Shown here piece by piece: positions 29,960 to 43,402 of a stretch of 64,000 nucleotides of DNA (positions are counted from its first letter, which is position 1; every line of letters begins with the position of its first letter). Origin of the DNA: Gemmatimonadaceae bacterium (lineage in GTDB: Bacteria; Gemmatimonadota; Gemmatimonadetes; Gemmatimonadales; Gemmatimonadaceae); the NCBI GenBank assembly GCA_035606695.1, contig DATNEW010000013.1, forward strand, positions 1 through 64,000. The letters run 5' to 3'. A program made the position numbers and the translations under genes. Under the pieces are notes generated by a model, which had not been told where the DNA came from, searched no databases, and saw nothing but the letters and a program-made list of their open reading frames with translations.

Positions 29960-30979
29960 CTACGCCGGCGTCGCACGAGAGCGCAGTGTGTACCGGCCGG
30001 TTTTCTTGCCGCCGATCTTTTCGATGATCCCCGCGTCGAGCAGCGGCCGAAGCTGATCCATCGCGCCCTGCTTGGATAGCTCGAGCGCCGCCCAGATCTC
30101 GGACGGCGCCATGCTGCCGTGGTCGCGCAGGAGCTCGAGCAGCCGCTCCTGCTTTGGCCGAAGCACCAGGCGCGCCGGTCCCGCCGCGTTGAGCGCCTGC
30201 ACGCGCAGCCACACGCGCTCGAGCGTGTGCCGGCGCCCCTCGGCCGAATACTCGAGCCACGTCGTGAGGTCGTCGCCTTCGCGGCGGACGGCTTCGAGCG
30301 CGGCGTAGTAGCCGGGCCGATTCTCCCAGTAATACTCGTCGACCGAGAAGATGTGATGTGTGTCGAATCCGCGGCGATACAGCTCCCAGAGCGCGAGCGC
30401 GCGGCCCGTGCGTCCGTTGCCGTCGGCGAACGGATGGATCGCCTCGAACTGATAGTGCAGGATGGCGGAGCTGAGCACCGGCGACAGGTTTCTGGATGTG
30501 ATATTCCACCATTCTAAAAGCTCGAACATGAGGCCGGACACCGCCTTGGGCGCGGGCGGCGTGAAGCGGCCGACCCGAACGCCGATCGTGCGATAGCGCC
30601 CGGCCTCACCCTGATCCATCACCCCTCTGGCGAGGATGCGATGCAGCCGGAAGACATCCTCGTGCCGAAGGGTCTTCTTGCGCGCGTGCTTCTCGACGTA
30701 CCGCAGGCCGGCGAAATAGTTCATGACTTCGCGATCGGACCGCGGGTCGGAGGCCGTGAGCTCGCCGCCCGCGTCGAGCGTGCGGACCTGATCGAGCGAG
30801 AGCGGGTTGCCTTCGATCGCCGTGGACGCGTGGGCGTTCCGCGTGCGGGTGTCTTTCTGCAGGGCCGGGATCCACGCCAGCTCCACCGCCGCGCCTTGAA
30901 TGCGGGTCCGCAGCGTGGCGATCGTCTCGACGAGGGACAGGAGCCGCGCAGTGATGGTGAATTGCGGCACATAGCTCAT
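29960..30979 (-). CDS. fic: Fic-family AMPylase with internal inhibitory motif
   Basis: A 339-residue cytoplasmic Fic protein. The catalytic loop His182-Pro-Phe-x-x-Gly-Asn-Gly-Arg is complete. An inhibitory helix (Ser52-x-x-x-Glu56-Gly57) lies N-terminal, which makes it a class II Fic protein held inactive by its own glutamate. The C-terminal 70 residues are a winged-helix domain, as in many stand-alone regulatory Fic proteins. It would transfer AMP from ATP to hydroxyl side chains of target proteins; the target is unknown. No antitoxin gene is adjacent. Upstream lies an array of TTGACT-like boxes that it may share with the divergent padR gene. Confidence 0.92.
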   Translation of the reverse strand: MSYVPQFTITARLLSLVETIATLRTRIQGAAVELAWIPALQKDTRTRNAHASTAIEGNPLSLDQVRTLDAGGELTASDPRSDREVMNYFAGLRYVEKHARKKTLRHEDVFRLHRILARGVMDQGEAGRYRTIGVRVGRFTPPAPKAVSGLMFELLEWWNITSRNLSPVLSSAILHYQFEAIHPFADGNGRTGRALALWELYRRGFDTHHIFSVDEYYWENRPGYYAALEAVRREGDDLTTWLEYSAEGRRHTLERVWLRVQALNAAGPARLVLRPKQERLLELLRDHGSMAPSEIWAALELSKQGAMDQLRPLLDAGIIEKIGGKKTGRYTLRSRATPA

Positions 30980-35664: not shown

Positions 35665-38019
35665 ATGCGTAGCCCCGCCTTGCGAACGCGCGGCAACGAA
35701 TACCACGAAGACTCCGACGAATGGCTCATCGACGCGGCCCGCCGCGCCGGCCATTCGATCCCGAAAGGCGAGCGTCCGCCGCGCGTCAGCGCCTGGCGCA
35801 TGCTCATCGGCGCCGGCGTCGACGACGATGAAATCCTGCGCCTCGCGTGCGCCGCGTCCGGCAAGGATCCCGCTGATTTCTCGCGCATCTCTCCCGCGCT
35901 GAGCGCGCTGCTCGCGCACGAAGTCGCGCACGAGCATCGCGTCGCGCCGGTCGGCGTGTACAAGGGCGTGCTCGCGATCGCGACGTCCAACCCGAGCAGC
36001 ATTGCGCTCGAGCGCGAGCTCGCGTTCGCCTGCCGGCAACGCGTCGCGCTGCAGGCGGCCAGTCCAAACGCGATTTTGCGCGCCCAGGCGGTCGTGTACG
36101 GCGGCGCGAACTATGGACGAACTCTCGATCTGGATTCGCGTCCGATCGCCGGAGTCGCGTCCAGCGCCCCGGCGGTTCAACCGCGGCCACAACCCGTGGC
36201 GCGATTGTCCGTCGGCGTTTCGGTGCAGTGCGATTCCGACCACACAGCGCCCGCGCCGCAGCCGAGTTGCGCTGCGCAAAGCGGTGCTGAAAACAAGAAC
36301 GCGCCGGAAACGCTCATCTCGCGACTGTTGGCCACTGCCGTAACCGAGCATGCCTCCGAGGCGCACCTGCAGCCGACGCCCGACGACGGCCTGGTGATTC
36401 GCCTTCGCGTCGACGGAAAGCTCAACGACCGCTTCCGGCTCGCCGCGGTGCACACGAAGGCATTGCTCGCGGCACTCAAGCGCATGGCGTCGCTCGACGA
36501 CGCCGAAACGAGACGCCCGCAAAATGGCCGCGCGTCGGTGACGTTGGAGCAGGGCCCGGTCGAGCTGCGGATTGCGACCGAGCCGGTCGGCATGTCGCAC
36601 GAGAAAGTCGTTGTATCGCTGGTCACGCCGCAGTCAGCGCTGTCGGTTGCCGATCTCGGATACACCGCGCACGAGCGGCATCAGCTCGAGCAGCTGCTTG
36701 CCGAGCCGTCGGGACTCGTGTTCATCGCGGGGACGCCGGAAACCGGACGCACGACGACGGCCTACGCGCTGATGAGAGAACTTCAATCGCGCGGCCGGCG
36801 GATCGCCACGATCGAGGAGCAGGTCGGTCGCCGGTTGGACGGCATCGAACAGATGCAGGTGGCCGACTCGCCGCATCCGACGCTGGCGTCCGCCGTGCGC
36901 GGCACGCTCGGACTGCACGCGGACGTCACGCTGATCGAAGCGCTTGCCGACGCCGCGACGATGGAAACGATCGTCGCGGGCGCGAGCGAGGGGCGGCTCG
37001 TCGTGACGACGATCGAAGTGCCGGGCATGACGGGCGTTATCGAACGCTTGCACGAATTCGAGATCGATCATGCGCTGATCGCGTCGGTGCTCAAGGGTGT
37101 CGTTACACAGCGGCTCGTGCGGCGGCTGTGCACCGCGTGCGCCGCGCCGCAGGAGCTCGGCGAATTGCCGGAGTCGCAGCAGGAACTACTGCTTGGACTT
37201 CCGACAAGCCGTCTCCGCCGCGCCGTGGGATGTCCACAATGCCGCGGCACCGGATACTCGGGCCGCATGGCGGTTGCCGAAGTCGTGATCATGACGCCGG
37301 CGATGCGTGCGGCGATCGTCCGCGGTGCCGAACCGGCCGAGCTGGCGCACATCGCGCGTGAAGGCGGCATCCGAACGCTGTGGGACTCGGGACTCGCTCA
37401 GGTGCTGGACGGCATCACCACACTCGGCGAGCTGCTCGACAACGTGCCGGCCCCGCAACACTCGGCGGGTGCCGACTTGCAACAGCGAGACATCGACGCG
37501 CTGCTTTCGCAGTTGCTCGGTTCGCCCATGGAGGCGCCTGCCAAGCCGGCGGAAGCAGCGGAAGCGGCGAAGGCGCCCGCGGCTGTTGCACCGCCATCAC
37601 CCGTAGCACCCGTAGCACCAAAGCCCGCGGTTACAGCGGCGCCACCATCAGCGGAACCCATTCGCGTGCTGCTCGTGGATGACGACGCGAATCAACGCCG
37701 CGCCGTTGCTTCGACGCTGCGCGAGGATGGCCTGAGCGTGATCGAGGCGGCGGACGGCGAGGCGGCATTGTCGTACGCACGTCGTCTCAAGCCGCACGTG
37801 ATCGTCACCGAGGTCACGTTGCCCAAGCTCGACGCGGTCGGGATGTTGCAGACGCTCGCCGCGGGCGGATCATGCGCCGCGGTGCTCGTCTACTCGGCGC
37901 AGAACGACGCGGTGCTGGAGGGATGGCTCAAGGAGTGCGGCGCGCGCGACGTCATTCCGCGAACCGTTCCCGCCGCCGCCGTCGCGCAGCGAATTCGGAG
38001 CCTTGCCGCGGCATCATAG
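35665..38019 (+). CDS. GspE/PilB-like ATPase homologue fused to a receiver domain, both degenerate
   Basis: A 784-residue soluble protein. Residues 40-150 are a MshEN/GspE N1-like domain, 210-595 a type II secretion/type IV pilus ATPase domain, 600-665 an Ala/Pro linker, and 665-784 a response-regulator receiver. The ATPase part keeps the four-cysteine zinc motif (Cys489, 492, 523, 526) and 'Thr-Gln-Arg-Leu-Val-Arg-Arg-Leu-Cys'. The Walker A Lys is Arg (Gly356..Gly361-Arg362-Thr), the Walker B Gly-Glu-Ile-Arg-Asp is replaced by Ile-Glu-Ala-Leu-Ala-Asp, and the conserved His box is lost. In the receiver the phosphoacceptor Asp is Glu716 and the Lys-Pro is absent, though the Asp672-674 cluster remains. 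No pilus or secretion genes are adjacent. A regulatory or scaffold role is more likely than ATP hydrolysis. Confidence 0.85.
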   Translation: MRSPALRTRGNEYHEDSDEWLIDAARRAGHSIPKGERPPRVSAWRMLIGAGVDDDEILRLACAASGKDPADFSRISPALSALLAHEVAHEHRVAPVGVYKGVLAIATSNPSSIALERELAFACRQRVALQAASPNAILRAQAVVYGGANYGRTLDLDSRPIAGVASSAPAVQPRPQPVARLSVGVSVQCDSDHTAPAPQPSCAAQSGAENKNAPETLISRLLATAVTEHASEAHLQPTPDDGLVIRLRVDGKLNDRFRLAAVHTKALLAALKRMASLDDAETRRPQNGRASVTLEQGPVELRIATEPVGMSHEKVVVSLVTPQSALSVADLGYTAHERHQLEQLLAEPSGLVFIAGTPETGRTTTAYALMRELQSRGRRIATIEEQVGRRLDGIEQMQVADSPHPTLASAVRGTLGLHADVTLIEALADAATMETIVAGASEGRLVVTTIEVPGMTGVIERLHEFEIDHALIASVLKGVVTQRLVRRLCTACAAPQELGELPESQQELLLGLPTSRLRRAVGCPQCRGTGYSGRMAVAEVVIMTPAMRAAIVRGAEPAELAHIAREGGIRTLWDSGLAQVLDGITTLGELLDNVPAPQHSAGADLQQRDIDALLSQLLGSPMEAPAKPAEAAEAAKAPAAVAPPSPVAPVAPKPAVTAAPPSAEPIRVLLVDDDANQRRAVASTLREDGLSVIEAADGEAALSYARRLKPHVIVTEVTLPKLDAVGMLQTLAAGGSCAAVLVYSAQNDAVLEGWLKECGARDVIPRTVPAAAVAQRIRSLAAAS

Positions 38020-41590: not shown

Positions 41591-43402
41591 CTACGAAACG
41601 ACGCGGTTGCGCCCCGATCGCTTTGCCACGTACAGCAGCGCATCCGCGTCGGCGATCGCCGCGGATGCGCTGGCCGTATGGTCGCCCGCCGCGATGCCGA
41701 TGCTGATCGTCACCGCGAGCCCCGGCGCGATCGACGACCAGTCGTGGCTCGCCACGGCTTCGCGAATGTTCTCGCAGACGGTGAGCGCGCCCGACAGCGG
41801 TGTTTCGACGAGCAGAATCACGAACTCTTCGCCGCCGTAGCGCGCCGTCACGTCGACCTTGCGTGTATGCTCGCGCACGATCCGCGCGACGGCCTGAAGC
41901 ACGGCGTCGCCGGTGGCATGCGAGTGGTTGTCGTTGATCGCCTTGAAGTGATCGACGTCGGCCAGCGCCACGGACAACGGGTGCTTGAACCGCCGTGCGC
42001 GCTCCCACTCGAGCGGCAGACGCTCGTCGAGATCGCGCCGATTGCGAAGCCCCGTCAGCGCATCCTCGCGGCTCACGCGCTCCAGTTCCGCCGCCTGCGC
42101 CTCGAGCTGCGCCAGAAGGCGCGACTTCTCTTCGTTCGCGGCGTCGAGCGTGGCGTTTCGCTCGCGCAGGAAGTTGGTCTCGCGCTCCTTCTCTCGCACT
42201 TCCGCCTGCAGCATCACGCTGAGCACGCGACGCTCGGCTTGGGCGCCATGCAACTCTTCGCGCAGCGCATGAAACGTCTTGTAGTGACAAAGCGCCGCTT
42301 CGGGCGCGCCGAGATCTTCGTAGACGGACACCAGCGCCCGGTGCGCCTCGGAGAGCAGCTGATGCGCTCCGCACGACGTCGCCCGCGCGAGCGCGAGACT
42401 CAACGCGCTCAGCGCCGCTTCATGCTCGCCGAGCCGCGCCAACGATTCGCCGATTCGCAAATGCGCCTCGGCTTCGTGAACCGACGCGCGTTGCGCCTCG
42501 CTGATCACGAGCACGCGGCGGAAGATGCCCAGGGCGTTCTCCGCGTCGCCTTTGTCGTAATGCAGGCGCCCCATGTTCTCGAGCACCGAGATCTCGGCTT
42601 CGCTATCCGACATGCCGCGCGCGAGATGCAATGCCGCCTCGTAGTGCTCGAGCGCCGAGTCGCGATTGCCGAGCCGTGCGTGCGCCCAGCCGACATTGTT
42701 GTGCGCCAGCAGGGCGTTCACCGATTCGCCCGTGCGCAGATAGTGCATCAGCGCCCGCTCGTGATACGCCAGCGACTCGGTGAACTGGCCGAGCGACCCC
42801 AGCGCGGAGCCGATGTTCAGCGTCGCAACCGACGCGCCGCTCGCGTCGCCCAGCCCTTCGAAGAGATCGATCGCCGCGCGATACTGCTCGAGCGCGGACG
42901 CGATGTCGCCTGCGACCGAATGCACGGTGCCGAGCGAGTTGCGCGTCGCCGCTTCGCCGGCGCGATCGCCGACGGCGCATTGCAGCTCGAGCGCTTCGAC
43001 GTGATAACGCGCCGCCGCGGGAATGTCGCCGCGCCGAATGTGGACGCCGCCGATCGCCATGAGGGTCGCCGCGTATTCGGTGCGCTCTCCGAGCTCGTTG
43101 AAGATCGCCGCGGCGCGCGTCGCGTCCTCGAGCGCGCGGTCGAGCCGGAGCTGGCGCGTCGAATATGTCGTCGCCACGCGCAATGCGCGCGCCTCGCCCA
43201 GGCGATATCCCGCCGATCGCGCGAGTGCCAACGCCTCTTCGGCCAGCGCGAGGCCTTCGCCCGCCAGGCGAAATCGCAGCGTGTCGGCGCGCGACGTCAA
43301 CGCGTCCACACGTTCCACGAGGTCGGGCGCAATCTCGACGGCGGCGATCACAGGCGGGGCTCCATGCGGCGGGAAGGGGCCATTCGGTTCCAGTATCGGC
43401 AT
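41591..43402 (-). CDS. TPR-repeat diguanylate cyclase
   Basis: A 603-residue cytoplasmic protein. Residues 30-360 contain about eight tetratricopeptide repeats, with 'Leu-Gly-x-x-x-x-x-x-Gly-Asp-x-x-x-Ala-Leu-x-x-Tyr' patterns. A coiled coil (370-430) follows, then a GGDEF domain with the signature Gly523-Gly-Glu-Glu-Phe527 and the Asp-Ala-Leu-Thr-Gly-Leu-x-Asn-Arg motif near residue 450. The active-site motif is intact, so it should make cyclic di-GMP, with the TPR part sensing a protein partner. The start is 35 bases from that of the divergent M50 gene. Confidence 0.92.
   Translation of the reverse strand: MPILEPNGPFPPHGAPPVIAAVEIAPDLVERVDALTSRADTLRFRLAGEGLALAEEALALARSAGYRLGEARALRVATTYSTRQLRLDRALEDATRAAAIFNELGERTEYAATLMAIGGVHIRRGDIPAAARYHVEALELQCAVGDRAGEAATRNSLGTVHSVAGDIASALEQYRAAIDLFEGLGDASGASVATLNIGSALGSLGQFTESLAYHERALMHYLRTGESVNALLAHNNVGWAHARLGNRDSALEHYEAALHLARGMSDSEAEISVLENMGRLHYDKGDAENALGIFRRVLVISEAQRASVHEAEAHLRIGESLARLGEHEAALSALSLALARATSCGAHQLLSEAHRALVSVYEDLGAPEAALCHYKTFHALREELHGAQAERRVLSVMLQAEVREKERETNFLRERNATLDAANEEKSRLLAQLEAQAAELERVSREDALTGLRNRRDLDERLPLEWERARRFKHPLSVALADVDHFKAINDNHSHATGDAVLQAVARIVREHTRKVDVTARYGGEEFVILLVETPLSGALTVCENIREAVASHDWSSIAPGLAVTISIGIAAGDHTASASAAIADADALLYVAKRSGRNRVVS

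Follow-up and report, generated by a model that had tools for sequence, protein, structure and literature searches.

The window analysed here is a stretch of 64,000 nucleotides from a Gemmatimonadaceae bacterium (assembly GCA_035606695.1, contig DATNEW010000013.1, positions 1 to 64,000). It carries, at 35665-38019 on the + strand, a complete gene for a protein of 784 amino acids, which the open reading frame, the Pfam matches and the orthologues characterize as a putative GspE-type pseudo-ATPase fused to a pseudo-receiver. The frame starts with ATG and has no internal stops, and the N-terminus aligns up to the assigned start codon with that of the orthologue in genome G002. Three Pfam domains were found: MshEN (residues 73-147, 1.7e-10), T2SSE (213-590, 7e-66) and Response_reg (668-777, 4e-14). 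The intact 2.3 kb frame joining a GspE/PilB-type ATPase to a receiver, as given in the preliminary description, was thus confirmed.

The MshEN-like N-terminal domain (PF05157) is encoded at 35881-36105 (+). The c-di-GMP binding motif of MshEN domains is RLGxx..G..L..L..Q (PMC10333796); its RLG and Q are missing in the window protein as well as in the consensus of the family, which reads SxWExxxxxG. Control by c-di-GMP through this domain was ruled out, the motif being absent. MshEN domains adjoining receivers are known (PMC5013675). The GspE/PilB-type ATPase domain (PF00437) comprises residues 213-592 (36301-37440, +), and an Ala/Pro-rich linker (residues 593-665, 37441-37659, +) connects it to the predicted pseudo-receiver, residues 666-784 (PF00072; 37660-38016, +), assigned from the Pfam match, the residue tables and a structural match to the VicR receiver.

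None of the four motifs expected of a functional GspE/PilB ATPase (Walker A GxxxxGKT, the Walker B Glu, the His box and the Asp box) is present in the window protein. The degenerate Walker A, residues 356-363 (36730-36753, +), reads GTPETGRT, with Arg362 (codon 36748-36750) in the place of the lysine that is invariant in 39 of 39 canonical relatives; the four orthologues, the window gene included, have R, K, T and K here. In the Asp box (residues 383-388, 36811-36828, +) alignment with the relatives revealed IEEQVG for VEDPVE, a change that had not been noticed earlier. The Walker B segment, residues 420-429 (36922-36951, +), reads DVTLIEALAD, and Ala426 occupies the position of the catalytic Glu (A, T, A and T in the orthologues), which is kept in 39/39 canonical proteins and in all nine proteins of the sister clade. 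The His box (residues 443-452, 36991-37020, +) has GR for GH and contains TTIEVP: His444 is replaced by Arg (R, R, R and C in the orthologues) and His451 by Glu (E, D, D and D, an acid in all four). The four-cysteine zinc site, Cys489, Cys492, Cys523 and Cys526 (37129-37242, +), is intact, and is invariant in every aligned protein (n = 28). The preliminary description had reported the arginine, the lost Walker B and His box and the preserved zinc site, and all of these stood. The protein also missed the NCBIfam equivalog cut-offs, with 265 bits against 630 for GspE and 250 bits against 676 for PilB. Judged by its residues, the window protein is a putative pseudo-ATPase, devoid of the side chains for ATP hydrolysis.

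The receiver half is altered as well. The acidic pair Asp672-Asp674 is kept and Ser744 is present, and Glu716 (codon 37810-37812) stands at the phosphoacceptor position, Arg766 (codon 37960-37962) at that of the conserved Lys. Both substitutions agree with the preliminary description; the loss of the aromatic switch residue (Tyr/Phe), which is Val763 here, is additional to it. With Glu716 replacing the phosphoacceptor, the domain belongs among the aspartate-less receivers (ALRs), a class defined by the lack of this Asp (PMC4395418), and is on these grounds a predicted pseudo-receiver without phosphorylation residues.

Both folds appear to be retained. The AlphaFold2 model had a mean pLDDT of 83, mostly above 85 in the ATPase domain and low in the linker at residues 620-661. 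The ATPase half matched PilB (5tsh) with Z 41.0 and an rmsd of 2.5 over 378 aligned residues, and the receiver half the VicR receiver (8fk2) with Z 22.9 and an rmsd of 1.0 over 119, as would be expected of a preserved N2D-CTD ATPase and a preserved receiver.

The GspE-receiver fusion itself, for which the preliminary description knew of no precedent, is not rare. In a sample of 150 genomes of the phylum 52 matched at E 1e-70 or better, and nearly all matches extended through the receiver; a unique fusion was thereby ruled out, as about one third of the sampled genomes carry GspE-receiver proteins, normally, in those inspected, with both sites intact. In 39/39 aligned canonical proteins the Walker A Lys, the Walker B Glu, both histidines and the receiver Asp and Lys are invariant. 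A search of genome contigs returned only three matches, all from Marinobacter and covering residues 195-590, and a plasmid search yielded ordinary GspE-type matches only, none spanning 80% of the query. Two further GspE-receiver fusions (L119 in G065, L121 in G066) have receivers that look intact, with Asp and Lys present.

The window gene groups with three others in a clade, hereafter clade A, with support of 100/100: L014 (56% identical, same genus), L046 (48%) and L047 (51%), the latter two from another genus. All four full-length proteins have lost the Walker B Glu, His444 and His451, the receiver aromatic switch residue, and the receiver Lys, which is replaced by Arg. The same kind of change thus occurs in three other genomes, which rules out a false frame or a sequencing error as the source of the shared losses; Arg362 is attested in the window genome alone. 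The preliminary description had proposed looking for K-to-R and D-to-E changes in orthologues. The second was found in three of the four (E, E, E and D at the phosphoacceptor, the Asp being that of L047), whereas the first is not a shared mark of the clade, as the Walker A Lys position varies.

The sister of clade A is clade B, nine proteins (L048-L053, L056, L057 and L062) whose own monophyly lacks firm tree support. The sister relation was supported by 100/97 and 98/93, and a tree of the receivers alone also united A and B (95). The ATPase is intact in nine of nine clade B proteins. Seven of their receivers are complete; five of these have Glu at the phosphoacceptor position, and in all seven the Lys and the aromatic switch are missing. 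Their acidic pocket is altered, whereas clade A keeps the acidic pair. The two clades share Thr715 (in most proteins) and Gln746 (in all); at position 746 canonical receivers have Lys, Arg or His. Because clade B combines an intact ATPase with a dead receiver, the receiver probably lost phosphorylation before the two clades split, and the ATPase lost hydrolysis on the clade A stem. The D-to-E change likewise seems to predate the loss of the ATPase, since Glu is found in five of the seven sister receivers attached to intact ATPases.

A second lineage, from another family, shows the opposite combination. In L018 (G044), L132 (G046) and L134 (G038) the Walker A Lys is replaced by T, A and A, respectively, and the receiver Asp and Lys are kept, which indicates that motor and receiver have been lost independently within the GspE-receiver family.

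No secretion or pilus genes flank the window gene; its neighbours encode YARHG, DinB, a DUF5117 Met-zincin and a TPR-GGDEF protein. An operon link to a pilus was sought and rejected for clade A and, by ORF inspection, for the sister clade. The TPR-GGDEF gene, for a diguanylate cyclase, lies about 3.6 kb downstream on the opposite strand (41591-43402, -). The gene at 29960-30979 (-) codes for a Fic/DOC-family protein whose C-terminal region resembles a winged helix.

Besides the window protein, the same genome encodes six full-length ATPases of the GspE/PilB type whose motifs are intact; one of them passes the PilB cut-off. The preliminary description had called for this comparison with paralogues. 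In both genera of clade A the canonical ATPases inspected are without a working receiver: in six genomes the frame reads on into a Nudix domain, in the window genome it stops early, and in four it has a very degenerate tail. A canonical ATPase lacking a working receiver is a natural first candidate for a partner, and the likeliest candidates by ancestry are the six intact ATPases, first among them the receiver-less canonical protein on contig C43.

The receiver-less canonical genes have features of their own. In L103-L107 and L110 (genomes G001-G005 and G067) the receiver is lost and the frame continues stop-free into the neighbouring Nudix gene, possibly as a GspE-Nudix fusion; since the Nudix part starts with a Met inside the frame, a separate product could also be made. 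On C43 of the window genome (L095:8377-16507) two partial copies of the C-terminal part, 85% and 83% identical, come after the canonical GspE. The spacings are 2.9 and 4.1 kb, unrelated ORFs lie in between, and the last copy enters Nudix. L109, L111, L114 and L115 (G066, G059, G018 and G063) have a strongly degenerate tail, by eye maybe a remnant receiver.

The window protein probably regulates other motors and does not power one, and the proposal that it regulates a true ATPase or pilus machine is a reasonable guess. The account that we hold to be probable is that it is a vertically inherited, maintained pseudo-ATPase/pseudo-receiver paralogue of the widespread GspE-receiver family that acts, without hydrolysing ATP, as a subunit, decoy or scaffold. 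Its receiver would have lost phosphorylation at a stage common with the sister clade, in which the ATPase is intact, and its ATPase would have lost hydrolysis later, on the clade A stem. The retained GspE surfaces could then let it associate with active hexamers of the GspE/PilB type, or with their platform proteins, or compete with them; the pseudo-receiver would serve as a docking face independent of phosphorylation. Against this account stand the lack of an operon tying the window gene to a pilus or secretion machine, the patchy occurrence and faster evolution of the gene described below, the Asp that L047 keeps at the phosphoacceptor, and the Walker A Lys still found in two of the orthologues, which may therefore bind ATP.

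Among the other explanations, the one that survives best, although we regard it as unlikely, is that a redundant paralogue is headed for loss, both sites decaying under relaxed selection in a frame that is still unbroken. Part of the evidence for it is the rate of change. Between the window gene and its G002 counterpart dN/dS (NG86) was 0.23-0.39 across all domains, ratios that are rough, as synonymous sites are near saturation. The ratio was 0.38 in the ATPase core, while the canonical ATPase, compared between the same genomes, gave 0.14; dN was 0.39 against 0.12, about threefold faster. The gene is also patchy, occurring in two of six genomes of its own genus and two of ten of the other, and its Walker A varies between orthologues. 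Patchy presence and the faster change of the ATPase core indicate that constraint is relaxed; by these rough ratios it would still be present, dN/dS lying far below 1. Four genomes, from two genera, carry intact full-length frames whose proteins are 44-56% identical, and the zinc site and the fold are kept. The conservation of derived residues (the acid at 451, Arg766 and Gln746), together with the confidently predicted fold, favours a maintained pseudoenzyme. The preliminary description had likewise judged decay unlikely from the intact frame; the analysis bears this out, since four orthologues from two genera share the changes in Walker B, the His box and the receiver Lys, at a dN/dS of about 0.4.

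It is improbable that the receiver is locked on, Glu716 mimicking the phosphorylated state and fixing the degenerate ATPase in a single conformation that signals constitutively. Among Asp-less receivers the Asp is most often replaced by Glu (26%), which can activate them (PMC4395418), and its presence in three of four orthologues and five of seven sister receivers, with the acidic pair kept in clade A, would fit such a role. Asp-to-Glu by itself is, however, often insufficient (PMC4395418), L047 has an Asp, and the activation Lys and the Tyr/Phe switch are gone in 4/4 proteins. The constitutive regulator suggested in the preliminary description was weakened on this account, because the aromatic switch is lost along with the phosphoacceptor. 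Least credible, and very improbable in our judgement, is continued ATPase activity by an altered chemistry, with Arg362 holding the phosphate and Glu425 or Glu451 replacing the catalytic Glu: the P-loop glycines and Thr363 are kept, Glu425 adjoins the lost Glu and an acid at 451 is general in the clade, but position 425 has Glu once, Gly twice and Ser once, the P-loop residue is R, K, T or K, and both R428 and the Asp box have changed.

Returning to the maintained pseudoenzyme, its relatives occupy four states: both halves live; motor live and receiver dead; motor dead and receiver live, in the separate lineage; and both dead, in clade A. We tentatively raise the possibility, with less confidence than we place in the account of the window protein itself, that GspE-receiver proteins are a modular signalling family of this bacterial order, in which motor and receiver were switched off independently and repeatedly, and that the doubly dead form is specialized to serve secretion or pilus motors as a non-catalytic subunit, or to act as their antagonist. 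If so, it would be a regulatory class not described for the GspE/PilB ATPase family in the literature searched. Secretion and pilus motors are usually treated as enzymes; clade A has the motor fold without motor chemistry. Together with sister clades in other live or dead states it would offer natural material on hexamers as regulators or scaffolds, and would inform the order in which a signalling fusion loses its parts.

What is known, then, is the GspE-receiver fusion; what appears to be new, from the residues compared, is a conserved clade with both halves inactive, and a doubly inactive fusion of this kind was not found described in the open-licence literature searched. With the GspE/PilB (PulE) ATPases the window protein shares the N2D-CTD fold, the tetracysteine zinc site and an N-terminal MshEN-like domain; it differs from them in the loss of the Walker A Lys, Walker B Glu and His box, in its C-terminal receiver, in scoring below the NCBIfam cut-offs and in standing outside a secretion or pilus operon. 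The canonical GspE-receiver proteins of clade C (for example L015 and L019), from the same order, whose genes adjoin tig-clpP-clpX-engB on inspection of the neighbours, have the same domain order and length and are 30-36% identical through the receiver, but keep the catalytic residues of both halves, as do 39/39 canonical proteins. Clade B shares the degenerate receiver and differs in its fully intact ATPase. Like ALRs and FrzS, the window protein has a receiver fold without the phosphoacceptor Asp, although its receiver is C-terminal to a degenerate GspE ATPase; FrzS acts in type IV pilus motility, and its pseudo-receiver works without Asp phosphorylation (PMC1974792). Catalytically dead members of the motor family can also act through partners: ATP-dead PilT supports PilU-driven retraction (PMC6762196), and in Myxococcus a PilB that lacks ATPase activity passes a signal to EPS production (PMC5544727). 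Those dead forms differ from active motors by point changes, made in the laboratory or occurring naturally, whereas the window protein belongs to a diverged orthologous clade.
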